From: a virus
Direction: 5' to 3' (one strand)
Virus record (IMG/VR): IMGVR_UViG_3300045781_000164
Location: 1 to 20,940 of that record
DNA length: 20,940 nt
Notes under the pieces: model-generated
Told to the model about the DNA's origin: nothing
The model's input: only the letters and a program-made list of their open reading frames with translations
Database searches by the model: none
Program-made: the position numbers and the translations under genes
In this document: piece after piece, positions 755 through 20,940 of the stretch
Numbering within the stretch: the first letter of the stretch is position 1
Layout: each line of letters begins with the position of its first letter

Positions 755-1089
755 GGCTGTGATCTCGTCTTTCTGCGTTGAGGCCAGCGTTTCATCTGGC
801 CGACGATCTGGGCGCCGTAGTCGGGCGGCGGGTCGCCTTGGCTTGCGCGGGGGGTCTCCTTGTAGCTGCTGTCCTGCAGGCCCGAGGTCGTCGCGTAGTC
901 CTGATCGTGCTCGATCGCGGAGCCGCCGAGGTCCTGGGCCAGCTGGTCGATCCCGTCCACGTAGCCTTGGACCTGGACCTCCCAATCGAGACGGCTCGCG
1001 GTCGCGCCGCGTCGCGTCAACTCGTGGACGAACTGCTCGGCGTTGGCGTCCGACCAGAACCGGAAGCGCGAGACGGGACCGTCACTCAT
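751..1089 (-). CDS. Small phage hypothetical protein, 112 aa
   Basis: The ATG at 1089 lies inside the last codons of the terminase gene, an 8-bp overlap (ATGAGTGA), which indicates translational coupling. The first 45 residues (MSDGPVSRFRFWSDANAEQF and onward) suggest a strand-helix-strand unit. The rest is polar, with a basic C-terminus. I recognise no family. An upstream in-frame ATG at 1128 would lie further within the terminase gene and is less likely. Its position directly after TerL fits a small packaging or head-joining accessory protein, but that is inference. Confidence 0.65.
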   Translation of the reverse strand: MSDGPVSRFRFWSDANAEQFVHELTRRGATASRLDWEVQVQGYVDGIDQLAQDLGGSAIEHDQDYATTSGLQDSSYKETPRASQGDPPPDYGAQIVGQMKRWPQRRKTRSQP

Positions 1090-2998
1090 CGTGGACCTCC
1101 GCGACCGGCGCGACGCCGCGCGCCTCACGGACCGCGTCCATGTAGCGCTTCGGCGGCTGCTTCTCCTTGGCGGTCACCGAGTGCTTGGACGTGATCTTGT
1201 TCAGGCTCTCGGGGATGCGGCTCGTCGGAATGTTGTGCCGCAGCCACAACTCGCGGCGCATGGTGAGGCCGATCGCGACGCCGGCCAGCGCGTCCGAGAC
1301 GTCCTTCGAGCCCTGAGGCTTGTGGTCGATCTTGCGCTTCTTGGCGTCGAACTCCAGCGTGCAGAGCTCGAACTGGACCTTCTTGTGCGCCGGGGCCTTG
1401 ATGCGCCGGTCGTAGAGCGCCTGCTTCGTCAGGTCGTAGGCCGCCGTGTCCGTGTCCATCGACTGGTAGCCGACGATGAAGCCCTGCTGTGCAAGTATCT
1501 GCATACTGTCGGTGGACTGGAAGCTGTCGAAAGAGACCCACTTGATCGGGACCATCAGCTTGTCGCGCATCACGTAGAGCAGCCGGCGGATATTCTCGAA
1601 CTCGATCTCCCCGCCTTTCGGCGGCCTGATCTCCAGGATCATGTCGTATTGGATGATCGGCAGCGTCTCCTGGAAGTCGCCCCGGTTCATGTGCTTGAAG
1701 CCGGGGATATGGCCGACGCAGACGCCGGCGCTGTCCTTGGAGATCGACAAGTCCACATGGGCGAAGCGCGGCTCGCCGGGGTTCTGAATGCGCTTGGGGA
1801 ACAGCTGCAGCTTCGTGTGCTCGAAGTCGCACTCCTCGCGCGAGGCGATCGACGGCGCGACGCCGAAGCACTCGGCGACCGCGTCGGTGTTCAGGATGAA
1901 CGGGTGCAGCGCCTGGGTCGAGTAGCCGGCGATGTCTCGGATCGACTTGACGAGGTCGTTGTTGAACTGGTGCTCGTATTCGACGGGCACCGCCACCACG
2001 AGGCGCTCGTCCCGTTCCGCGACGATCTCGTCTTCGCGCAGGATGCGGGGCTTGCGGGTCTCGTCGCCAACGAAAACGCGGAACTTGTCGCCGCAGAAGC
2101 GGTCCGGGTCGATGTCCCAGAGCCGCTTGTCGTAGACGAATATGCGGTGGTTCGCGCCAGCTTCCTCCACCTTGCGGTCGGTCAGGCCGCCCGGATAGTT
2201 CTTCGACGACACGAGGCAGAGCATGCCGGGGAGCTCGCCCAACTGCATGAAGCGGCTTTCGCGGCGGCGGGCGATGGCGTTGTAGTTCTGGACCGCCTGA
2301 TCGTAGACCGAGCCGTCGCGGCTCGCCTTCGACTTCTCGACGACGGCCATGAAGTCCACTTCGTCGATGATGCCGCCGATGACGTTCTGGCCGATCGCGC
2401 CCGTCTCCTGGCCTGACACCGGCTTGACGATGATGCGCCTCGGGAACTTCATCTGCGACAGCGTGCCTTCCTCGAACCGGAAGTGGCGCTTGAAATAGGG
2501 GGCGCTGGAGATCATGGCCCGGAAGCGCTCGTAGTCCACCGACTTCGCGAGGTTGGCGTTCAGCGACTGGAAGACGATGACGATCTCGGACGCCGGGTCG
2601 AGATTGAACTCTTCGTGCGGGTTCCTGAGGCAGGACATCAGGTACAGCTGGTAGGCTTGGCAGTACAGGGCGATCGTGGTCTTGGCGACCCCGATGCCCC
2701 CGGTCAGAACGCTCTCGACGTACTTGCCCGAGTTCATCTCTTCGAGCTCCCGCATGACGTGCGGCCAGAGAACCTTGGGCGCGTTCATGTAGGACGGGTC
2801 CTCGACGAACTTCCGCACCCCGACGACGGGGAAGCGGTATTTCGTCAACTCGTGTAGAGGGTCCTTCGACCGCGACAGGCGCGCGAGCCATTCGATCACG
2901 GCGTCGAGGTCCTCGGGGAAATCGTTGGCGATCTCCGCGAGAAACTCCTGGGCGAGCTCGACGAAGTCGGGCTCAGGCTTCCTGGTCGGCCGGCTCAT
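1082..2998 (-). CDS. terL: Phage terminase large subunit
   Basis: The 638-residue product is the packaging ATPase and nuclease that loads DNA into the prohead. The N-terminal ATPase shows a degenerate Walker A at about residues 99-108 (GGIGVAKTT) and a Walker B at 209-216 (GIIDEVDF). The C-terminal RNase H-like nuclease has its acidic residues in the expected order: VDLS with D416, VSFDSF with D491 and KDVSDAL with D569. Length is normal for a two-domain TerL. The start overlaps the upstream gene by 26 bp, and the stop overlaps the downstream start, so it sits in the middle of a coupled operon. The replacement of the usual GxGKS/T core by GVAKTT is seen in some phage terminases. I am confident of the family, not of the packaging type. 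Confidence 0.95.
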   Translation of the reverse strand: MSRPTRKPEPDFVELAQEFLAEIANDFPEDLDAVIEWLARLSRSKDPLHELTKYRFPVVGVRKFVEDPSYMNAPKVLWPHVMRELEEMNSGKYVESVLTGGIGVAKTTIALYCQAYQLYLMSCLRNPHEEFNLDPASEIVIVFQSLNANLAKSVDYERFRAMISSAPYFKRHFRFEEGTLSQMKFPRRIIVKPVSGQETGAIGQNVIGGIIDEVDFMAVVEKSKASRDGSVYDQAVQNYNAIARRRESRFMQLGELPGMLCLVSSKNYPGGLTDRKVEEAGANHRIFVYDKRLWDIDPDRFCGDKFRVFVGDETRKPRILREDEIVAERDERLVVAVPVEYEHQFNNDLVKSIRDIAGYSTQALHPFILNTDAVAECFGVAPSIASREECDFEHTKLQLFPKRIQNPGEPRFAHVDLSISKDSAGVCVGHIPGFKHMNRGDFQETLPIIQYDMILEIRPPKGGEIEFENIRRLLYVMRDKLMVPIKWVSFDSFQSTDSMQILAQQGFIVGYQSMDTDTAAYDLTKQALYDRRIKAPAHKKVQFELCTLEFDAKKRKIDHKPQGSKDVSDALAGVAIGLTMRRELWLRHNIPTSRIPESLNKITSKHSVTAKEKQPPKRYMDAVREARGVAPVAEVHDE

Positions 2999-3602
2999 GC
3001 TCGATTACCTTGGTGCGTTCCTCGATCATCTTCATCATGCGCGCCGCGAGCATCGACATGCGCTCGTGGGTGCTCGCCACCTTCGAGAAGGCGACGTCGC
3101 TCTCGTTGCCGAGACCAATGTGCTCGATCACCTTCGGCGTCAGGCCGAGCAGGTCCATCCGGTGCTTGTGGACGTTCAGGATCGTCTGCATGATGCTCTG
3201 CTTGCGGGTCGCGTCCTCCAGGTTCTGGGTCAGCGACCAAAGCTCGCTCTCGACGAGGTCGAGCCGGGTCAGGCCCTCGCCGCGCGCGCGACTGTAATCC
3301 TGGGTGGACCCCATGAGCTCCCACCGCGCCTGGACGCGGCTCATGTAGCGGTCCATCTGGCGGGGATCATCGACCTCCAGGAGCAGCATCAGCTGCCGCT
3401 TCTGGCGGATGCCCTTGATCATCAGGAGTTCGACGCGCGCCACCTGCTGTTCGTCACGCAACGTCGGGTCGCGCTCGTCGTAGGTCGGCTCCGGGGGCAC
3501 GATCACCCGTTCGGGCATCGTGTCGCGGACTTCCGGCCGCTCCCCCTTCTTCAACTTGGCGGTGTAGACGACCTGTCGCTTCTTGATCTTGATCGGGGCC
3601 AC
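2973..3602 (-). CDS. Putative terminase small subunit (DNA-recognition protein)
   Basis: The 209-residue product ends inside the start of terL, the usual place for the small subunit. Residues 50-105 look like a helix-turn-helix region (from about VARVELLMIKGIRQKRQ to DRYMSRVQARWEL). A long helical stretch at 110-200 could support oligomerisation. TerS proteins bind the packaging site and regulate TerL. That role is inferred here from position, size and helical make-up rather than from a diagnostic motif. The N-terminus is basic (MAPIKIKKRQVVY). It follows the ParB-like gene by only 3 bp. Confidence 0.6.
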   Translation of the reverse strand: MAPIKIKKRQVVYTAKLKKGERPEVRDTMPERVIVPPEPTYDERDPTLRDEQQVARVELLMIKGIRQKRQLMLLLEVDDPRQMDRYMSRVQARWELMGSTQDYSRARGEGLTRLDLVESELWSLTQNLEDATRKQSIMQTILNVHKHRMDLLGLTPKVIEHIGLGNESDVAFSKVASTHERMSMLAARMMKMIEERTKVIEHEPADQEA

Positions 3603-3605
3603 GGC

Positions 3606-4475
3606 TTAGCTCTGTTTGTCGGCAGCTTGCTTCTTCGCCTCCTTGTGGGCGGCGTCGTTCGCGAGCTTGTCGTAAATCTTGGCGTGAGCCGCCTTGGCGA
3701 TCGACATCTGCTGGTCTTTGGGCAGGCTGTTGAACGTCTGGCAGATCACGGCGAGTGCGACATTGCGGAGTTTCGCCCCCGCGATGCCCATCGCCGCCTT
3801 CATCGCCTGATCATAATCCGCAACTTCGTGTCCAATCAAGGCCGTAACGTCCTCGCCGGCATATTTCATGGCCTTCTTCATGGCCACCGTGTACGCCTGG
3901 TGCTCGTCGGGCAGCAGAAGCAGGTTCACGGCGATCGGCCGCTCCACTTCTTGTGCAGATAGCTTCACGCCGTCGCCCGGCTTGAAGTCGGGGACCTTGA
4001 GCAGGTCGAGGACGCTGGTCTGCTCGTCTTCGCCGATGCCGGTCATGTGCCGGATTTGCTGCGGCGTGTAATCCTTGTGGAGGTCCACCAATAGCCGGGC
4101 GAGCCGGATCGGGATATTCTGGCCGCGCAAGCCGTTCATGGCGAGGGTGCGGACCTTGGCCTCGGTCTCCGTGTACGGGACCACGACGACCGCGATGCGC
4201 TTCTTGCCGGCGATCTTCGAGCTCTTCCAGCGGTGCTCGCCGTCCACAATCTCGAACTTGCCGGGCTTTTCCGAGTGCGGGCGACAGAGGATCGGCTGTT
4301 GCATGCCGCCGTCCTTCACCGCCGCGACGATGCCCTCGAAGAGCTCCGCCTCCATCGAGTTCGGGTTGTAGGCGTTCGGCTCGATGTCGTCGATCTCGAC
4401 CATGCGAATGTCGATGTCGTCCGCGTCGGTCTGCTCGACCTCGGCCTTGGTCTGCTTCTTGATCACGAGTGCCAT
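3606..4475 (-). CDS. ParB/Spo0J-like protein with helix-turn-helix
   Basis: The 289-residue product starts 10 bp after the DruA-like gene, behind a good AAGGAG site. The ParB N-terminal domain spans about residues 22-115. It carries the family motif as VDGEHRW at 78-83 and a following NGLRGQNIPIRLARLL segment at 114-129. A helix-turn-helix follows at about 136-160 (YTPQQIRHMTGIG). The C-terminus is Lys/Ala-rich and helical. Members of this family act in partition (CTP-dependent DNA clamps), as nucleases, or alongside phage DNA modification genes. No ParA partner is visible, so plasmid-type partition cannot be claimed. Its position between a DruA-like gene and the terminase suggests a role on phage DNA. 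It contains one copy of the 14-bp palindrome and has another 32 bp before its start. Confidence 0.85.
   Translation of the reverse strand: MALVIKKQTKAEVEQTDADDIDIRMVEIDDIEPNAYNPNSMEAELFEGIVAAVKDGGMQQPILCRPHSEKPGKFEIVDGEHRWKSSKIAGKKRIAVVVVPYTETEAKVRTLAMNGLRGQNIPIRLARLLVDLHKDYTPQQIRHMTGIGEDEQTSVLDLLKVPDFKPGDGVKLSAQEVERPIAVNLLLLPDEHQAYTVAMKKAMKYAGEDVTALIGHEVADYDQAMKAAMGIAGAKLRNVALAVICQTFNSLPKDQQMSIAKAAHAKIYDKLANDAAHKEAKKQAADKQS
3954..3967 (-). promoter_or_regulatory. 14-bp palindrome, operator-like site 2 (intragenic)
   Basis: Minus-strand TGAAGCTATCTGCA, a full match to the consensus, within the ParB-like coding sequence. Confidence 0.55.
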
Positions 4476-4485
4476 TGTGCTCTCC

Positions 4486-5340
4486 TTAGTCCGCTACGTC
4501 GTCATGTGCAGGTAGCTGCACGTTTGTCATCCGCTTGGCCGCCAACATGTTCGAGAGGCGGTAGCGCTCGGGGTCGAAGGTGATGATCGGCGAGTTGCCC
4601 GTGCTCTCCAGACGCGCCTTGAGCCAGCGCTCCTTCCAGTAGGCGACCTGATCGCCGAGCTTGTACATGGCGGTCCCGCCGAGCGGCGAGCCGGTGCGCA
4701 TGTGCGCCAGCCCCTTCTTGCGGAGCTCCATCGCGTAGAAGCCCTTGCCTTCGTCATCGACCTCGACGAGCTCGATCCCGCGCGGATGCAGCCGGTTGTA
4801 CTGGCTCCCCTTCCCGTGCAGCGTCCTGATGATGAAGTACACGTACTGGAAGCTGAACCGGAGCTCGTAGAGCCGCATCACTTCCTGGGAGGTCGCGATC
4901 AGGGCGAGCAGCTTTCCGCCGACCATGCCGCCGAACTCGTAGATCGGCAGGCAGCGCCGCATCATGATGACCTGGTGCTGGCGCTTGAGCCGCATGTCGT
5001 CGTTCTTGTCCCACTCGAACAGCCGCATCATGGGCTTGGACGTGTTCGGCGGGTCCGAGAGCGCGATCACCCCGAGGAAGCCGCCCGAGGTCTTGTCGAG
5101 CACCACCAGCGGCGACGAGCGCCCTGCCCCGGCGAAGCTCGGTTGCTGCGGCTCCGACGACAGGACTACGCGCCAATAGTCGAACACGTCCGACAGCTGC
5201 CCGGTGCGGCATTCGTGGACCTCGGGCTCGATCTTGGTCAGGTCGATCGGCTTGAGAAACGAGAGCGCGAGCGGCTCGACGTCCGTCAGATCGCGCAGCC
5301 AATGGTTCTGGCGCTTCACCCGGTCCATCGGCGATTTCAC
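4486..5340 (-). CDS. DruA-like protein (DUF4338)
   Basis: The start is a GTG at 5340 that overlaps the upstream stop as GTGA; an ATG four codons later is the alternative. The 284-residue product matches the DUF4338/DruA pattern I know. It has an N-terminal segment with DVFDYWRVVLSSEP near residue 48, a strand GGFLGVIAL near 83, a tryptophan-containing region LFEWDKN, the block VGGKLLALIATSQEVMRLYE near 140-160, and GSQYNRLHPRGIEL near 180. DruA was named from Druantia anti-phage systems, and its chemistry is unsettled. Here it stands without other Druantia genes, in a phage operon between a GNAT and a ParB-like gene. That argues for a phage DNA-handling or modification role rather than host defence. 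Family assignment is from remembered motifs. Confidence 0.75.
   Translation of the reverse strand: MKSPMDRVKRQNHWLRDLTDVEPLALSFLKPIDLTKIEPEVHECRTGQLSDVFDYWRVVLSSEPQQPSFAGAGRSSPLVVLDKTSGGFLGVIALSDPPNTSKPMMRLFEWDKNDDMRLKRQHQVIMMRRCLPIYEFGGMVGGKLLALIATSQEVMRLYELRFSFQYVYFIIRTLHGKGSQYNRLHPRGIELVEVDDEGKGFYAMELRKKGLAHMRTGSPLGGTAMYKLGDQVAYWKERWLKARLESTGNSPIITFDPERYRLSNMLAAKRMTNVQLPAHDDVAD
4507..4520 (-). promoter_or_regulatory. 14-bp palindrome, operator-like site 3
   Basis: TGCAGCTACCTGCA on the minus strand, within the last codons of the DruA-like gene and 32 bp before the ParB-like start. Confidence 0.65.
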
Positions 5341-5777
5341 TTCGACACCCTCTTGATCAGCGTGAAGCCGGCGTCCCGCTCGTCGAGCGTCTGGTAGCCG
5401 AGGCCGGCGTAGAAGGAGCGCGCCTTCGTGTTCTTGCGGCGCACGGCGAGCCGGATATGGGTCGCCCCGGCGACGACGCTCTCCGCCTCGGCCCAAAGCA
5501 TCAGCGTCCGCCCCGTGCCCTTGGGGGCGTCGATCGGGTGCGCGCAGACGTAGTGGACGTTGAACTTGTTCGGCTCCAGGCTCTTGGCGACGAGGACCAT
5601 GCCGAGGACCACGCCGCGCCAGTCGGCGACGCCGAAGATGAACGCGGGATCATCGACCTTGGAGGCCAGCGTCTGCGGCTTGACGCGCTCGCTGAACGCG
5701 GCCTGATAGACCAGGACCGCGCCGGCAACGTCGTCCATTGTGCCTCTGCGGACGGCGATCGAAGAGGGTCCCGACAT
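5337..5777 (-). CDS. GNAT-family N-acetyltransferase
   Basis: The ATG at 5777 shares its A with the upstream stop (TAATG), so the two genes are coupled. The 146-residue product has GNAT hallmarks: an N-terminal MDDVAGAVLVYQAAF helix, a central strand and loop VHYVCAHPIDAPKGTGRTLM that carries the acetyl-CoA pyrophosphate-binding motif A, and a C-terminal KNTKARSFYAGLGYQ segment typical of motif B. GNATs transfer an acyl group from CoA to an amine. The substrate cannot be read from sequence. It lies between a DUF2156-like transferase and the DruA-like protein, so it may act in the same pathway. Confidence 0.85.
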   Translation of the reverse strand: MSGPSSIAVRRGTMDDVAGAVLVYQAAFSERVKPQTLASKVDDPAFIFGVADWRGVVLGMVLVAKSLEPNKFNVHYVCAHPIDAPKGTGRTLMLWAEAESVVAGATHIRLAVRRKNTKARSFYAGLGYQTLDERDAGFTLIKRVSK

Positions 5778-6628
5778 TACCGGCGCTCCACCGCGTAGAA
5801 GTCGATCGTGCCCGAGCATAGAAGCTGCTTGCGCGCCGCGAGCTCCTTGTGGTCGGCGGGGCCGTCATTGACGGTGAGCCCCAGGTGTTCGGCCAGCGTG
5901 ATCGAGCAGAGCAGGTTCGACCCCGCGAAGAGCCCGTGCGTCTTTTCCCGGTCCGATCGTTGTGTGAAGCTAACTGCAAACCTGCCCGATAGGCGAGACC
6001 CCATCTCGTAGGCGATCATCTCCCCGGTTTCGCGGTCGAAGACGGCGGCGCAGGCGGCTGTCGGCTCGATCTCCTTGACGAGGGTCCAGTTGTCGATCAG
6101 CCAGTCGATCAGCGTCTTCTCGGAGGGACGCCAGAGCCGGTCCTTGGCCTCCGCGTACCAGCGGCGCGTCAGGTCCTTGAGCGCCGGCTCGAAGTCCTTC
6201 GGGCTAATGACGAGCGCCTCGGCCGCCGTGCGCGCGCGGGAGACCTCGTAGCGGCGATTGCGCAGCCGACCGCCTGGGAGGGCGGCAAGGCGCGCGGGGT
6301 CCATCAGGTATTCGGTCTGGATTTTCGTGACCTTGAAGCGCCGGGCGCGCAGCGGCTCCACCATGTACTCGGGAACGAACAGGACCCGATAGCCCTGCGC
6401 CCACTCCACGATGGCGCGGTAGTATTCGGCCTGGCTCAGCGGCGGGATCAGCCGGGCGTCCTTGTCGCTGACGAAAGCGCGAAAGCCGGCGATCTCCGCC
6501 AGCTTCCATTTCCCGCTCATCAGGCGCGGCAGGACGTTCAGCGGCCCATAGAAGGACGACGGCGCGTCAACAGCGTCGAGGCTCTCCTGCAGGACCCCCA
6601 TGAGGTCCTTGTAGACGGCGAGGTCCAT
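5777..6628 (-). CDS. DUF2156/FemAB-like acyltransferase, copy 2
   Basis: The start ATG at 6628 overlaps the stop of the upstream paralogue as TGATG. The product has 283 residues. The central motif LPGGRLRNRRYEVSRAR near residue 117 resembles the basic loop of the phosphatidylglycerol lysyltransferase C-terminal domain (DUF2156). A tryptophan-rich helix pair follows (LTRRWYAEAKDRLW, then TLIDWLIDNWT). A C-terminal GNAT-like core has MIAYEMGSRLSGRFAVSFTQ and a final segment with LFAGSNLLCSITLAEHL. This superfamily moves aminoacyl groups, often from aminoacyl-tRNA. No membrane segments are present, so a soluble or DNA/protein substrate is as likely as a lipid. It is clearly related to the next gene upstream. 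Confidence 0.75.
   Translation of the reverse strand: MDLAVYKDLMGVLQESLDAVDAPSSFYGPLNVLPRLMSGKWKLAEIAGFRAFVSDKDARLIPPLSQAEYYRAIVEWAQGYRVLFVPEYMVEPLRARRFKVTKIQTEYLMDPARLAALPGGRLRNRRYEVSRARTAAEALVISPKDFEPALKDLTRRWYAEAKDRLWRPSEKTLIDWLIDNWTLVKEIEPTAACAAVFDRETGEMIAYEMGSRLSGRFAVSFTQRSDREKTHGLFAGSNLLCSITLAEHLGLTVNDGPADHKELAARKQLLCSGTIDFYAVERR
5965..5978 (-). promoter_or_regulatory. 14-bp palindrome, operator-like site 4 (intragenic)
   Basis: TGCAGTTAGCTTCA on the minus strand, full consensus match, inside the coding region of the second DUF2156-like gene. Confidence 0.55.
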
Positions 6629-7551
6629 CACGGCTCCAGGCGGAAGAAGGGTGTGAGGCTGGCGACGACCTTGCCCTTGTTGTGGCGCAGCGCCGTGGTG
6701 TCGGCGGTGCCGTCGTTCTCCCAGGGCTCGTCGTGGAAACGGGCGAGGTCCTGCCACAGCATCCAGTTGCAGCCCTGGATCGGGTGCTCGCGGTCGAAGC
6801 GCTCGGTGTAGGCGCTCCACACGCCCTCGCAGAGCTTGGAGGCCACCGTGAAGGCGATCAGCTTGGCGTCGGCGTTGACCCGCGCGCCATAACACAGGAG
6901 GTCCGGCGCGGCGGCGCGCAGCGCGGTCCAGTTCTGCAGGAGCCAGTCGATCGAGGTCTTGTCGTAGGTCCTGAATTTGGCCTCGGCGTTCTGGCGATAC
7001 CACGCCTTGTTGACGGCGAGATAGTCTTCGACGTGGTCGCCCTCGAAGCGGCCTACCGTCGTCGCGCGCCGGCACTGGTTGATCAGGTTGCGCTGGTTGC
7101 GCAGCCGGCCGCCGGGGAGCTCTCGCAGCGTCGCCGTGGCGATCACGAACTCCTTCTGCTGCGGCGTCACCTTGTAGTGCTTGCGCAGCGCGTTGGCCGC
7201 CCATTCCGGGACCAGTGCCAGCGTCGCCTTAGCCTCGACGAAGCCCATCAGGGTCCGCCAGTAGGCGGCGCGGTCGGCCAGCGGCAGGACGCGGATCGCG
7301 CCGTCCACGCTCGCGAAGATCAGGGCGTCGGCGCGCTCTTCGACGAGCAGCACCTTGCCGAGTACCAGCTTCGGCGCGAGGTTGGGGAGCGACCACCAGA
7401 AGCTGGCGGCCCCGCAATCCGCCAGGGACTGCAAGGCGCGGGATCGGTGCTGCAGGAAGATTTGGAGCGGACGGCGCCCATCGAAAGGACCACCCTCCCT
7501 GGGCGGGAGGGGCCGCTCCACTGCGGCGTCCGCGTGATTGTTTGACAGCAT
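6628..7551 (-). CDS. DUF2156/FemAB-like acyltransferase, copy 1
   Basis: This 307-residue product is a paralogue of the following gene. Shared features in the same order are LPGGRLRNQRNLINQCRR near 144-161, the AWYRQNAEAKFRTYDKTSID segment, the WLLQNWT helix, a core strand with LIAFTVASKLCEGVWSAY, and a C-terminal GTADTTALRHNKGKV block. The motif LRNQRNLIN is closer to the canonical DUF2156 loop than that of copy 2. The N-terminus has about 22 residues more than copy 2. The chosen ATG has only a GGGGGC-like ribosome site, so a GTG ten codons later remains possible. The tandem arrangement suggests either two substrates or a heterodimer. No transmembrane region is seen. Confidence 0.75.
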   Translation of the reverse strand: MLSNNHADAAVERPLPPREGGPFDGRRPLQIFLQHRSRALQSLADCGAASFWWSLPNLAPKLVLGKVLLVEERADALIFASVDGAIRVLPLADRAAYWRTLMGFVEAKATLALVPEWAANALRKHYKVTPQQKEFVIATATLRELPGGRLRNQRNLINQCRRATTVGRFEGDHVEDYLAVNKAWYRQNAEAKFRTYDKTSIDWLLQNWTALRAAAPDLLCYGARVNADAKLIAFTVASKLCEGVWSAYTERFDREHPIQGCNWMLWQDLARFHDEPWENDGTADTTALRHNKGKVVASLTPFFRLEP

Positions 7552-7577: not shown

Positions 7578-8075
7578 TCAGAGAAGTTTGGTCTGCGTGC
7601 CGACCCAGGGCTCGAATTCGGGCCAGCGCACGTGCTGCTCGACTTTGATTTCGTATGGCCGGGCGTCAATCAGGGAGCCGTCCGTCATGATATGCGTTGT
7701 CTTCACGTTCGGGTGTTTGCGGTGATACCACGCCATCAGCTTGCCGGCCCGATGGCACTGGCAGGGCTGGCCCTCCGAGCACATCATGGCGACGCGCTTG
7801 CCCTCCCCCGCGAGCTCCAGCATGCGCTCCATCTTGGAGATGAAGGTCGGGTCGCCGATCTTGCGCTCCGACAGACCCCCCAGGATCGTGCCGCCATAGA
7901 GATATTGGAGCCCCTCGGCCGAAACGATCTTGATCAGATTGTCCCGCTGAAATTGGGGAAACCTCGACCTTGGAGCGGATCGAACGTCCACCAGCACGTC
8001 TATCGCATGCTGCTTCAGCAGACCTACGAACTTCTCCTTCGGATGGTTGCTATGCCCGATCGACCAGATTTCCAA
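7578..8075 (-). CDS. DUF488 family protein
   Basis: The TTG at 8075 is preferred because a perfect AAGGAGG lies 8 nt upstream (8084-8090) and the family begins at this point (MEIWSIGHSN). A longer frame reaches a GTG at 8129 but has no ribosome site there. The 165-residue product carries the DUF488 pattern: SIGHSN at 5-10, DVLVDVRSAPRSRFPQF near 26-42, a YLYGGTILGG block, and MCSEGQPCQCHRAGKL near 122, where the cysteines and CHR motif are typical. The biochemical function of the family is not settled. It occurs in bacteria and phages. An operator-like palindrome lies at 8137-8150, so expression of this gene and the transferase block below it may start or be controlled here. Confidence 0.85.
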   Translation of the reverse strand: MEIWSIGHSNHPKEKFVGLLKQHAIDVLVDVRSAPRSRFPQFQRDNLIKIVSAEGLQYLYGGTILGGLSERKIGDPTFISKMERMLELAGEGKRVAMMCSEGQPCQCHRAGKLMAWYHRKHPNVKTTHIMTDGSLIDARPYEIKVEQHVRWPEFEPWVGTQTKLL

Positions 8076-8136
8076 TTTGCGGTCCTCCTTGACCCTTCCA
8101 TCATGCCACGTGACCTTCCCGCTGTACACGGAAAAG

Positions 8137-11379: not shown

Positions 11380-12357
11380 TCAGAGGCTCTCCCCCGGCAG
11401 GGTCTTGCGATACTGCACCCAGCCCGGCCCGAGATTGCCGCCAAGTTCGGACGTCATCCGAGGCGTGCCGTTGACCATGAGAAGTGGAGCCCTCGGCACT
11501 TGGGCCTGGTGCTCGGCGGGGCTGACATGCAGTGGGGTCGAGGCCACCAGCTTGTCGTGGAGGGCGACGGCGCGCTCCAGCGTCATGTCGAAGCCATCCA
11601 CCGTCTTGTAAGACGTCGAAGCGCACCGCGCGACCGAGAGCTTGATCGCGTTCTGAAGCGCCTCGCCGCCCGACAGGACCACGGGTTCGTCGTTGGCGTC
11701 CACCGCGTCCACAAACGGCAGGTGCCACTGGCCAGGCTCCAGGAGCGTCGGGTACGAGGCTTGTTGCGCATCCCACATGCGGTCGGCCAGCATCTTGATA
11801 TGCGGCTCGGCGTCGGCGTGCCGGCGAAGCGCATAGAAGTTCGACCACTGCGTCCCCGTCACGACCACGGTGATATGGCTGAACGGCTCCAGCAGGCGGT
11901 TCACGATCTGCTTGTGGTAGCCGGCGTCGTCAAACGAGCGCGCCATCGCCACGGCGTTCTCGATGGCGTAGCGCCACGCATCCTCGCGAGAGCCCCAATT
12001 CCCATGCGGGCCGTTGTTCGCGTCGGAGTATTCGACTTCGGCGTTGCAGTCTTCGCTGGCCTGCATGCCTTTCTGGTTCTTGCCCCAGAACAGCGGGATC
12101 GCGGGATCGTCGAGCACGTCCTGGATCATCTTGCTGACCGGTATGGCGCGGCTTGAGCTCGCGTTGCGGGAGAGGTCCGGGTCCTCCATGAGGCTCGGCG
12201 TGCGGACCTCGACCTCCAGGTCTTCGCCGACGCGAAGCACGCGGTGCGTGCGGCCCTCGGCGTGTATCCAGCGCGGGTAGCGCAGGCGGAAGGTGGTCAG
12301 ACGCGGGGCTTGATGCCCCACGCTGTCCGCCACCACGGTAGCGGAAATGGTCGTCAA
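11380..12357 (-). CDS. thyX: FAD-dependent thymidylate synthase
   Basis: ThyX makes dTMP from dUMP using methylenetetrahydrofolate and reduced flavin. The 325-residue product has a phage-type version of the signature: THRVLR near residues 37-42 and, after an insertion, LSRNASSSRAIP near 62-73, where the family has HR followed by SxNxxSxR. A second conserved block, TGTQWSNFYALRRHADAEPH near 167-186, matches the nucleotide-binding region. The start is TTG at 12357, 7 nt after AGGAGA and overlapping the upstream stop as TTGA. It is longer than bacterial ThyX (about 220-250) because of insertions and a C-terminal extension, as in other phage members. With the dCTP deaminase-like gene it forms a dTMP-supply module. 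Confidence 0.9.
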   Translation of the reverse strand: MTTISATVVADSVGHQAPRLTTFRLRYPRWIHAEGRTHRVLRVGEDLEVEVRTPSLMEDPDLSRNASSSRAIPVSKMIQDVLDDPAIPLFWGKNQKGMQASEDCNAEVEYSDANNGPHGNWGSREDAWRYAIENAVAMARSFDDAGYHKQIVNRLLEPFSHITVVVTGTQWSNFYALRRHADAEPHIKMLADRMWDAQQASYPTLLEPGQWHLPFVDAVDANDEPVVLSGGEALQNAIKLSVARCASTSYKTVDGFDMTLERAVALHDKLVASTPLHVSPAEHQAQVPRAPLLMVNGTPRMTSELGGNLGPGWVQYRKTLPGESL

Positions 12358-14536: not shown

Positions 14537-16195
14537 TTATGCGTTGCTGACCTGGCGCACCGTCGGCGGCAGGGCGACGCCGAGAGCGGAGAGCGCGAGG
14601 CTGGCGATGGGGCGTGGGGCGGAACGCAGCAGGAAGCGCTTGCCGTCCTGCTCGACCTCCGTTTCGGTGAGCGAATCCAGATCGGCGATGACGTCGGGCC
14701 AGGACGTGCGGGCGCTCTTGCCGGCGGCGACGAGATGGTCCTCCAGTTCCTTCTTCAGGACCAACGCCAGGAAGCTGCACGCGACGTGGCCGCGGATCGT
14801 CTCGTCGAGCTTGTGATAGATCGGTCGCGTTTCGAACAGACTTTTTGTGGTTCGGAAAGCCCGCTCCACGGTCCAGAGTTGTTTGTAGACGAGCATTGTT
14901 TGAAGCGGCGACAGGCCGGCGTTGGTGCGTAGCACGAACACCCCGTCGTATTTTGCGTCCTCTTCGATCTTGGCGCGATCGATGGCGAAGCCGTCGCCGT
15001 CGCCGTTGGCGAGGAAGCGGCGAAAGCCCTTGTTGCCGACCAGGCTCTTGTCGCCCTTCTTCAGTTGCTTCTCCAGCGCCGCGACGATGGCGGCGCGGTC
15101 GGCGGCGTCTTTCCTCATCTGATCGAGATTGCGGCAAACGACATAGCGCCGGCCGGCGGTCTCCACCGCCTTGGCTTCGTATTCGACCTCGCCCCTGGGC
15201 TTGACGAGGGTCATGGGAACGAACGGCGCGGGATCGGCGAGAACGACCTCCTGCACCAGCTTGTCGCTTCGCTCGCGCACGCCCAGCACATAGAGGAGCT
15301 TGCGCGCTTCGAGTTCGGCGATCGTCTCGGCGCTGATCATGCCGCGGTCGGCGACGATGCAAACGCGGTCGATGCGAAAGCGGCGCTGCAAGCGATCGAT
15401 CGCCGGAATCAGGCTGCTGACATCGGTCGTGTTGCCGGGCCACATCTCCGTGCATACCGGCCGGCCATCGCCGTCGAGGAGAACGGCCAGGATCATCTGG
15501 TTCAGGTCCGGCCGATGGTCTTTGGAGAAGCCGCGCCGCCCCAGCGTCTGGCCGCCCGCGCCCTCGAAATACAGGCTCGTCGTATCCATGAACACCACGT
15601 CGAGCGTGGCGAGCAGATCGCGTCGATGAGCAAACAACTCCTCCTCCAGGACATCCTTCACGCAGCGCGGCGCGAATGGCGTCGCCCCGTCCTGCTGGTC
15701 GGCGGGCAACTCCTCGCCGAGCCAGGCCATCGTTCGATAGAGGTGATGCAGATCGAGGTCCTCGACGCCGTCGATGGCGTAATCCTCGCGCCAGCGATCG
15801 GCGGCGCGATCCGACCCGCCGGCGAACAGGCGATGCAGCACGGTGAGAAACGCGGCGCGCTCCAACGAGAACTCATGACCGCGGCGGCTTGCCAGTCGCT
15901 CGATCACGTCCCGACAGCCCGTCTCCTGCCACACCCGCTCGAAGGCGAGCGCCGGCCCGATGCGCCGCGTCGAGATCGTTGCGGCCTCGCCGCGCTCCAC
16001 GGCGTCGAGCACGATGGCCTTGGCGGCGAACCGCGCGCCCGAGCGCAGCAACCGCTCCAGTTGTCCGCTCGCTTGCAGTTCGTCGATGCGCCCCAGCGTG
16101 GCGATCACCTGCTGGCGTACGGCGGCGCCTTCGCGCCGGCTTTCGACGATTTGCAAATAGGCGCGTCCGGCGGAGGTTTTCTTGCGGAAATACAT
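14537..16195 (-). CDS. IS1634-family DDE transposase
   Basis: The product from the ATG at 16195 has 552 residues (MYFRKKTSAGRAYLQIVESR), a normal length for the IS1634 group. An upstream in-frame ATG at 16234 is less likely because the conserved N-terminus begins at MYFRKK. The three acidic residues of the DDE site are visible: D204 in VVFMDTTSLYFEG, D283 in IVADRGMIS and E444 in the YKQLWTVERAFRTTKS block, the typical Y-(2)-R/E-(3)-R/K signature. There is no internal stop or frameshift, so the element could be active. The gene has no strong ribosome site. It is oriented like the phage genes. Confidence 0.92.
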   Translation of the reverse strand: MYFRKKTSAGRAYLQIVESRREGAAVRQQVIATLGRIDELQASGQLERLLRSGARFAAKAIVLDAVERGEAATISTRRIGPALAFERVWQETGCRDVIERLASRRGHEFSLERAAFLTVLHRLFAGGSDRAADRWREDYAIDGVEDLDLHHLYRTMAWLGEELPADQQDGATPFAPRCVKDVLEEELFAHRRDLLATLDVVFMDTTSLYFEGAGGQTLGRRGFSKDHRPDLNQMILAVLLDGDGRPVCTEMWPGNTTDVSSLIPAIDRLQRRFRIDRVCIVADRGMISAETIAELEARKLLYVLGVRERSDKLVQEVVLADPAPFVPMTLVKPRGEVEYEAKAVETAGRRYVVCRNLDQMRKDAADRAAIVAALEKQLKKGDKSLVGNKGFRRFLANGDGDGFAIDRAKIEEDAKYDGVFVLRTNAGLSPLQTMLVYKQLWTVERAFRTTKSLFETRPIYHKLDETIRGHVACSFLALVLKKELEDHLVAAGKSARTSWPDVIADLDSLTETEVEQDGKRFLLRSAPRPIASLALSALGVALPPTVRQVSNA

Positions 16196-16279
16196 GGCGG
16201 GAGGCCGAATCGCGCACGAATAAGTGGTACGCACACGATAACGCCTATCTCAACGTAAATCAAGCAAAATAAGTATAAA

Positions 16280-19441: not shown

Positions 19442-19503
19442 TGCAGTTCGTACGCCACGCAACCATCTGATCTTGCTGCGGACGCGGTCCTGCGTGCCTA
19501 GCG

Positions 19504-19548
19504 TTCCTAAACCTGGGGTCAGGGGTTCGATTCCCTTCCGGGACGCCA
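19504..19548 (+). other. Attachment site: 3' fragment of tRNA-Arg(CCT)
   Basis: The 45 nt read as tRNA positions 32-76: anticodon loop TTCCTAA (anticodon CCT), the 3' side of the anticodon stem ACCTG, variable loop GGGTC, T arm AGGGG-TTCGATT-CCCTT, acceptor strand CCGGGAC, discriminator G and encoded CCA. The sequence before 19504 cannot pair with ACCTG, and no D arm or 5' acceptor GTCCCGG is present, so this is not a complete gene. Identity starting exactly at the anticodon loop is the classic end of a tyrosine-integrase element in a tRNA gene. Orientation puts the island to the left and chromosome to the right. Confidence 0.85.
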
Positions 19549-19670
19549 TTTTCCAGCGGTTTTTCCCCACGGCCCCGATGAGCGTTTCGCTGCGGAGAAT
19601 CGGCGCGTTGTTCAGCGCCGAGTTTCCCGGACGTCGCGTCTCTCGTCGGCTTCGTCTTCCTGACGCGCCC

Positions 19671-19698
19671 CGCGCCGTTGGGGAAGCCGAACGGCGCG
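19671..19698. repeat. Inverted repeat (9-bp stem) upstream of ndh
   Basis: CGCGCCGTT at 19671-19679 pairs with AACGGCGCG at 19690-19698 around a 10-nt loop. There is no T tract, so it is not a standard terminator. It lies in the 277-bp gap between the tRNA fragment and ndh and may be a regulatory hairpin or operator. Confidence 0.4.
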
Positions 19699-19825
19699 AT
19701 TTGAGCCGAGGCTCGGTCCCCGGCGCTTGAAGTTGCCGGCGGCCATCGCACGTTCTACTTTCGTTTAGATACCGGCCTCAACGTATCGCCAGATGGCGGC
19801 GTAGTGCCGGTGAATCGGGGGCTGA

Positions 19826-20940
19826 ATGGCGCAGGCGGAACCTCATCGGATCGTGATCGTCGGCGGCGGGGCCGGCGGGTTGGAGCTGGCGACGCAGCTT
19901 GGCGATACGCTCGGCAAGGCGGGCCGCGCCACGGTCACGTTGGTGGACAGGAGCCGCACCCATGTCTGGAAGCCCCTGCTGCACTCCGTCGCCGCCGGCA
20001 GCCTGCGCCGCTCGCAGCACGAGTTGAACTATCTCGCGCAGGCGCACTGGCACAAATTCCGCTTTCGGCTCGGCGAGATGGCCGGGCTCGACCGGGCGGG
20101 ACGCAAAATCGCCCTCGCGGCGCTGCATGACGAGGAGGGGCGCGAGATCTCCCCGCCCTCCTGGCTGCCTTACGATACGCTCGTGGTCGCGGTCGGCAGC
20201 GTCACCAACGATTTCGGCACGCCTGGGGCGGCGCAGTTCGCAGTCCCGCTGGAGACGCCGGAGCAGGCGGGCCGCTTCAACCGCCGCCTCGTCAACGCGT
20301 GCCTGAGGGCGCAGACGCAGGCCGAGCCGATCTCGCCCGGCCAGTTGCACGTCGCCATCATCGGCGCCGGCGCGACCGGGACCGAGCTTGCGGCGGAACT
20401 GCATCACACCGCGCGCGAACTCATCGCCTATGGCCTCGACCGCATCGATCCCGAACACGATCTCAAGATCGTGCTCATCGAGGCGGCCGACCGCATCCTG
20501 CCGGCGCTGCCGCAACGCATCTCGGCCGCAACACAGCGATTGCTCGAAGAGATCGGCGTCGAGGTCAGGACGGGGGCGCGGGTCGCCGCGGTGCGCGAGG
20601 ACGGCGTCGCGCTGGCGGACGGGGATTTCGTGCCGAGCGACCTCGTGGTCTGGGCGGCCGGGGTCAAGGCGCCCGCCTTTCTCGCCGAGATCGACGGGCT
20701 GGAGACGAACCGCATCAATCAGCTCATCGTGCGCCCGACGCTGCAGGCAACGCGCGACGACCATGTGTTCGCCATCGGCGACTGCGCCTCCTGCGCACGG
20801 CCGGGCTATCCGCAGCCGGTGCCTCCGCGGGCGCAATCGGCGCATCAGATGGCGGAATTCATGCTCGGCCAAATCGACAATATTCTGGCCGGGCGGCCGC
20901 TGAAGGACTTCGTCTACCGCGATTTCGGCTCGCTGGTTTC
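19826..20940 (+). CDS. ndh: Type II NADH dehydrogenase (NAD(P)/FAD-dependent oxidoreductase), 3' end outside window
   Basis: The ATG at 19826 opens a frame of 371 codons that runs off the right edge; family members have about 430 residues. The product oxidises NADH and passes electrons to quinone at the membrane surface without pumping protons. The N-terminal FAD-binding motif IVIVGGGAGGLELA is at 9-22 and the second dinucleotide-binding motif VAIIGAGATGTELAAEL at 176-192. The ATG motif before it (VVAVGS) is near 120-125, and the late FAD-contacting VFAIGDCAS is at 314-322. All are intact. There is no strong ribosome site, only a G-rich run. It is chromosomal, on the outer side of the tRNA attachment site. 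Confidence 0.93.
   Translation, partial: MAQAEPHRIVIVGGGAGGLELATQLGDTLGKAGRATVTLVDRSRTHVWKPLLHSVAAGSLRRSQHELNYLAQAHWHKFRFRLGEMAGLDRAGRKIALAALHDEEGREISPPSWLPYDTLVVAVGSVTNDFGTPGAAQFAVPLETPEQAGRFNRRLVNACLRAQTQAEPISPGQLHVAIIGAGATGTELAAELHHTARELIAYGLDRIDPEHDLKIVLIEAADRILPALPQRISAATQRLLEEIGVEVRTGARVAAVREDGVALADGDFVPSDLVVWAAGVKAPAFLAEIDGLETNRINQLIVRPTLQATRDDHVFAIGDCASCARPGYPQPVPPRAQSAHQMAEFMLGQIDNILAGRPLKDFVYRDFGSLV

Follow-up and report, generated by a model that had tools for sequence, protein, structure and literature searches.

Why would a phage keep two FemAB-like transferases, a GNAT acyltransferase, a DruA-like protein and a ParB-like protein in one coupled block directly upstream of its terminase genes? 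We analysed this block at positions 3606-7551 of the complete virus record IMGVR_UViG_3300045781_000164 (20,940 bases, hereafter the window). The original prediction proposed that the block adds amino acid or acyl groups to DNA bases, in what would be a new arrangement. Modification of DNA by this cassette is the best-supported reading, and we regard it as likely. In other phages, the slot that the cassette occupies holds DpdA, QueC/QueF/FolE or D12 methyltransferase genes; the ParB protein covaries with the cassette; a D12 gene is part of one distant version; and the DNA of DLP3, a phage with a related terminase, resists restriction. The cassette probably encodes an undescribed means of masking viral DNA from host defences. 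The prediction is supported in part; its thymine variant found no support.

The five-gene block and its relatives

All genes of the block lie on the minus strand, in the order FemAB-a, FemAB-b, GNAT, DruA and ParB, followed by a small open reading frame (ORF) and the gene of the terminase large subunit (TerL):

7578-8129, minus strand: DUF488 protein (PF04343, 2.4e-15), a constant neighbour upstream of the cassette (linkage only)
6628-7551, minus strand: FemAB-a, DUF2156/FemAB aminoacyl-transferase-like protein (PF09924 LPG_synthase_C, 2.5e-10)
5777-6628, minus strand: FemAB-b, a second, divergent FemAB-like protein (30-32% identity to FemAB-a)
5337-5777, minus strand: GNAT acyltransferase (PF13673/PF00583, about 1e-6)
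4486-5340, minus strand, GTG start: DruA/DUF4338-like protein, the proposed DNA writer (PF14236, 3.2e-7)
3606-4475, minus strand: ParB-like protein, the proposed DpdB-like partner (PF02195, 4e-13)
2973-3602, minus strand: ORF of 209 amino acids (aa) in the small-terminase position, without family match
1082-2998, minus strand: TerL (PHROG terminase, 7e-4; 60% identity to RcZahn TerL)

The stop codon of FemAB-a and the start codon of FemAB-b overlap in TGATG, FemAB-b and GNAT are joined by TAATG, and GNAT and DruA by GTGA. Ten bases separate DruA from ParB, with AGGAGA ahead of the ParB ATG. The family matches and re-read junctions confirmed the genes, order, strand and coupling described in the original prediction, with one small correction: the mechanical ORF of the GNAT extends to 5819, but its translationally coupled start is the ATG at 5777. 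FemAB-b itself had no Pfam match, and its identity was established by similarity to FemAB-a (1.9e-30) and through its ortholog at L010:6385-7236 (54% identity), which matched PF09924 at 2.9e-9. The GNAT has an ortholog in the same place in L010 (40% identity). DruA scored 30.2 bits against PF14236, for which the curated gathering cut-off is 27; its orthologs scored 35.5-42.9 bits and share the core LHGK..Y.RL..RG. In other work, DUF4338 has been annotated as a GNAT domain (PMC10853773).

Single-sequence searches of viral contigs with FemAB, DruA and TerL returned no relatives, whereas profile and alignment searches succeeded. A FemAB-pair profile retrieved two contigs of metagenome-assembled genomes (MAGs), of 95.6 kb (L010) and 96.0 kb, from genome contigs, and ParB and DruA profiles retrieved L015-L020, L021/L022, L040/L041 and L049 from viral contigs. 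Versions of the cassette are thus present in 11 distinct phages, the window and ten others. L010 has the same gene order as the window, with identities of 49% (FemAB-a), 54% (FemAB-b), 40% (GNAT), 60% (DruA), 66% (ParB) and 51% (TerL), and variants of the order occur in the nine other phages. In consequence, the block is real and not a chance arrangement, and the concern that homologues of these genes might never co-occur is answered: they do. Downstream of DUF488, three layouts were observed:

Type 1 (window, L010): FemAB-a, FemAB-b, GNAT, DruA
Type 2 (L011, L015, L016, L018, L020, L041): FemAB-a, middle protein, DruA
Type 3 (L017): DruA alone

DUF488 is kept at the same position in every DruA phage with a known upstream flank; the L018 sequence lacks this flank, and L049 is a short fragment in which only DruA-ParB-TerS-TerL (TerS, terminase small subunit) is visible. 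DruA lies immediately upstream of ParB in 10 of the 11 phages. The exception is the distant L021, where only a D12 gene intervenes and the order is three FemAB-like ORFs, Amidoligase_2 (7e-11), DruA, a D12-class N6-adenine DNA methyltransferase (8e-12) and ParB. The part between FemAB and DruA is variable, and consists of FemAB and GNAT, of a D12-methyltransferase-like protein, or of extra FemABs with an amidoligase. The type-2 middle protein (361 aa in L011, which has the order FemAB-a, middle protein, DruA, ParB, TerS, TerL) carries a CGSC motif near its N-terminus and NPPT, not DPPY, further along. Its profile matched the L021 D12 protein at 9e-4, which is suggestive only of membership in the D12 family.

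The slot upstream of ParB

TerL relatives among isolates of ~80-100 kb were RcZahn (60%), DLP5/DLP3 (54%), the Rhizobium phages RHph_TM16/Y1_11 and Vibrio phages. ParB, the small ORF and TerL are common to these relatives, and RcZahn and the Rhizobium phages additionally share upstream GNAT2, helix-turn-helix and RapZ-C genes. In place of FemAB-FemAB-GNAT-DruA, RcZahn carries a deacetylase, an epimerase, an aminotransferase, a methyltransferase and a glycosyltransferase. Similar sets with an epimerase, an aminotransferase and a glycosyltransferase fill the slot in DLP5 and the Rhizobium phages (in DLP5 also the deacetylase and methyltransferase), and that of Vibrio phage VH2_2019 holds PIG-L, two WbqC-like genes, a methyltransferase and a glycosyltransferase. 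The loci of these isolate phages with amino-sugar/glycosyltransferase cassettes ahead of ParB-TerL are L004/L009, L005, L006, L008 and L035. Genomic DNA of DLP3, a sister phage of DLP5 that carries the same genes, resisted 15 of 15 restriction enzymes, from which its authors inferred modified DNA (PMC7326821). For the related Vibrio phages, the papers on them contain no restriction data.

Searching with a ParB profile built across the group brought in 72 additional, more distant loci (L057-L128) on ParB similarity alone. The genes just upstream in sampled loci encode QueC, PTPS, QueF, FolE, radical SAM proteins and D12 methyltransferases. Nine proteins from these loci, tested singly, matched the PHROG of queuine-type ribosyltransferases, which is the annotation given to DpdA, the enzyme experimentally shown to insert 7-deazaguanines into phage DNA (PMC6884629). 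A DpdA profile found matches in 28 of the 72 loci (roughly 19 independent cases, because several loci are near-duplicates), always upstream and on the same strand, and in 24 within about 150 bp of ParB. The DpdA partner used in insertion, DpdB, is itself a ParB-like ATPase (PMC12839542; PMC6392294). DruA and DpdA are mutually exclusive: no DruA was found in the 72 ParB loci, and the DpdA profile found no match in the DruA and sugar loci. This exclusion, together with DpdA adjoining ParB, argues that the place directly upstream of ParB is the writer position, held here by DruA. The 28 DpdA loci, and others with D12 methyltransferases, form a large source of further modification cassettes.

The same slot could instead be a mere hot spot for accessory genes near ParB and TerL. 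The FemAB and GNAT proteins would then aminoacylate a lipid, peptidoglycan, a surface sugar or a virion protein, for superinfection exclusion or lysogenic conversion, and the sugar cassettes of DLP5 and RcZahn would alter lipopolysaccharide (LPS). WbqC-like and aminotransferase genes also occur in surface-sugar loci, and the best-known FemAB/DUF2156 proteins act on lipids and the cell wall. The authors of the DLP3 study weighed both an LPS change and DNA glycosylation for its glycosyltransferase (PMC7326821). We nevertheless judge an envelope or virion target unlikely, given that other phages have DpdA with preQ0 genes, or a D12 DNA methyltransferase, in this slot, that DLP3 DNA is restriction-resistant, that DruA/DUF4338 is known from DNA-defence systems, and that ParB tracks the cassette.

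The last point comes from a comparison of trees. When the cassette label is mapped on the TerL tree (15 phages), three changes are required, and a single split was recovered in 0 of 200 bootstraps, whereas the ParB tree splits exactly by cassette type with support of 100/99. Likewise, the 209-aa small ORF is 21-77% identical among DruA phages vs 5-17% to sugar-cassette phages. L021, with a TerL only 19% identical (near chance), still has a related ParB (33%), small ORF (27%), DruA and FemABs. On these grounds, the cassette and its ParB and small ORF move together. Linkage between neighbouring genes can account for part of this, although TerL, equally a neighbour, does not follow the cassette.

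This covariation also bears on the idea that the block combines two unrelated units, with ParB and the small ORF serving packaging or plasmid-type prophage maintenance and FemAB, GNAT and DruA being co-transcribed accessory genes. DLP5 is maintained as a phagemid, to which its ParB proteins have been linked, and ParB and the small ORF adjoin TerL everywhere. Nevertheless, ParB divides according to cassette type, DruA accompanies ParB even in the unrelated terminase background of L021, 28 of the 72 loci combine a ParB homologue with DpdA, and Pfam scans of the window and of G003, the full 95.8 kb record of L015, showed no recognisable ParA gene. Two independent units are thus somewhat less probable still than an envelope target.

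Among annotated phages, DruA was found only in Pelagibacter phage Mosig, in a different context, and none was found in PLSDB plasmids. A phylum-wide genome search gave one distant match in an unrelated genome (L039, 6410-10571), in a different, defence-like context, where the cellular DUF4338 gene lies beside nuclease- and helicase/ATPase-like ORFs; in that search one genome of 398 had the ParB clade, namely the Burkholderiaceae MAG retrieved before. Although DruA (PF14236) is a component of Druantia and its L039 relative has such neighbours, an inter-phage defence module in which DruA acts on invading DNA is very improbable, as neither DruB-DruE (including a YprA-like helicase) nor a nuclease set was seen among the scanned window ORFs, and the genes occupy a conserved core slot by TerL, not a variable accessory site.

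Candidate chemistry and target base

With DNA modification as the preferred reading, the next question is what would be transferred. The AlphaFold model of FemAB-a (pLDDT, a confidence score, of 84) matched 2hqy, a DUF2156 protein, best in the PDB (Z 26.6), and also L-PGS/MprF (Z about 18), the aminoacyl-tRNA-dependent peptide synthases Sbb17/Sba18 (Z about 15.5) and FemX (Z about 15). These structural matches and a PF09924 score above the cut-off place FemAB-a in the tandem-GNAT (LPG_synthase_C/FemX) fold. Its aminoacyl-tRNA-dependent structural matches include ones solved with a small-molecule amine. From the modelled fold, we infer that the FemAB pair are aminoacyl-tRNA-type transferases and that aminoacyl-tRNA would be their donor.

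The group transferred could be aminoacyl or peptidyl, derived from aminoacyl-tRNA via FemAB and installed by DruA-ParB on a DNA base, most likely at adenine N6. We advance this tentatively, as a possible form of a chemistry that is not yet described and whose module would be swapped with DpdA, glycosyl and D12 systems. In the order of steps that we infer, FemAB-a and FemAB-b would load or extend an aminoacyl group and the GNAT would add an acyl group, with a D12-like protein or an amidoligase taking part in sister phages. DruA, hitherto undescribed as a writer, would then attach the group to DNA, or act on DNA, with ParB as its DpdB-like partner. In each case, the product of the gene on the upstream side of ParB would be the enzyme that works on phage DNA, with DruA in this role in the window, DpdA or a D12 methyltransferase elsewhere, and a glycosyltransferase in the closest isolate relatives. 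The transferred group would most likely be carried by an exocyclic amine of a base. Modification would protect the DNA from host nucleases, and ParB and the small-terminase partners would be matched to the modified DNA.

The choice of base follows from the enzymes that were sought. A thymidylate-synthase-type hydroxymethylase (PF00303) was absent from five relatives, and none was seen in the Pfam scan of G003, which covered all but its shortest ORFs and those crossing slice borders; the window itself is a fragment. No hydroxymethyl-pyrimidine route was found in these scans, and the thymine hypermodification route is unsupported. Pfam families in G003 comprised RecA, DnaB, RuvC, primase, dUTPase/DCD, PPDK, phosphatase and tail genes. 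Because no other base-modification enzyme was seen beyond the cassette among the scanned G003 ORFs, the cassette is the candidate modifier if the DNA is modified. Moreover, no preQ0 synthesis genes were seen in the window or G003, and the DpdA profile had no match in the window. As no hydroxymethyl-pyrimidine enzyme was found, an exocyclic amine is a likelier acceptor than a hydroxymethyl group, and adenine N6 is favoured because of the D12 association and the precedent of Mom. A ThyX-like protein is encoded at 11380-12357 of the window (phrog_85, 2e-69) and also in DLP5, L017, L041 and L021; its absence from G003 rules it out as a member of the cassette.

Several points weigh against DNA modification by an aminoacyl-transferase route. 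The substrates for which FemAB proteins are best known are lipids and peptidoglycan, and L017 has DruA and ParB without FemAB. For the type-2 middle protein, neither Pfam nor the PDB gave a significant match, and its hhalign score is weak (27% over 59 aa). The DruA structure prediction was poor (pLDDT 48.5, 3 sequences) and was unused for fold claims. The ParB tree has long branches (L021, VH2), the covariation may partly be linkage, since ParB, TerS and the cassette adjoin, and many viral loci are near-duplicates, as counted above. For a modified nucleoside in virion DNA, the data are indirect and come from DLP3 of the sugar-cassette group.

Among known systems, DpdA-DpdB of phages 9g, CAjan and Rosebush is similar in having the modification enzyme directly upstream of a ParB-family partner and the biosynthetic genes further upstream, and the DpdA-ParB pairs found here also lie upstream of the terminase. 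The window ParB belongs to the same superfamily (PF02195), and the ParB profile retrieves DpdA-linked ParBs. The DruA phages differ in that no DpdA was found in them and no preQ0 genes in the window or G003, with DruA as the putative writer and FemAB/GNAT, a D12-like protein or an amidoligase as the supply. Mom of phage Mu, a GNAT-superfamily enzyme, modifies adenine N6 with a small acyl-type group and needs no hydroxymethyl base beforehand (PMC7824862). The present cassette is, by contrast, multi-gene, with a FemAB pair, DruA and ParB, and its proteins gave no Mom family match in Pfam or PHROGs scans, a direct comparison with a Mom profile not being made. In carboxymethylcytosine formation, CmoX/CmoY combine a methyltransferase-like handle with a ligase, frequently with a ParBc gene (PMC12783734), but CmoX acts on cytosine C5 with an AMP-forming ligase, which was not seen here. 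The sugar cassettes of DLP3/DLP5, RcZahn and the Rhizobium and Vibrio phages share the slot before ParB-TerS-TerL and related terminases, yet have entirely different enzymes and a different ParB clade. FemX, MprF and Sbb17 share the fold of FemAB-a, whereas the phage proteins lie in a DNA-modification neighbourhood. Druantia differs in that the window DruA lacks DruB-E among the scanned ORFs.

FemAB relatives were not found in annotated phages, and the literature searched contains no description of an aminoacyl-transferase/DruA pairing in phage DNA modification. If DNA modification by the cassette is correct, it adds an aminoacyl-transferase route to phage DNA modification and gives DUF4338/DruA a testable biochemical role; if the aminoacyl chemistry is also correct, DruA/DUF4338 of bacterial defence systems gains a DNA base-modifying function. 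A search rule would follow as well, namely that in this large terminase group the DNA-modification slot is marked by whichever gene lies immediately upstream of ParB. Applied to public phage data, the rule would lead to many modification cassettes that are still uncharacterised.

Other features of the window and related phages

A dispersed palindrome, TGMANNTANNTKCA, recurs 44 times in the 95.8 kb of G003, where 0.1 copies would be expected, and 9 times in the window. The window's own variant of it occurs in 12-15 copies with 1-2 mismatches, the inner bases being lineage-specific. Sites in the window are at 224, 1490, 3954, 4507, 5965, 8137, 9710, 11015, 12374, 12961 and 19246. Scattered genome-wide, they resemble 'stoperator'-type repressor sites or ParB-type sites.

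An insertion of about 1 kb, which may be an intein or intron, breaks TerL after residue 106 in both L020 (8703-11474) and L019 (1975-4746). The window encodes a DDE_Tnp_1-type transposase (1e-12) at 14537-16234, with few recognisable phage genes beyond, and its right part may therefore be a decayed prophage. The plus-strand ORF at 19826-20938 was read by eye as a host NADH-dehydrogenase-like protein. A stretch resembling a tRNA 3' end lies near 19500-19560, where Rfam and ARAGORN found no tRNA; the region 19500-20940 suggests a prophage boundary. Finally, genes for an Acb1 anti-CBASS protein and an ADP-ribosyltransferase domain were noted in the cassette phage G003 (L030-L032).

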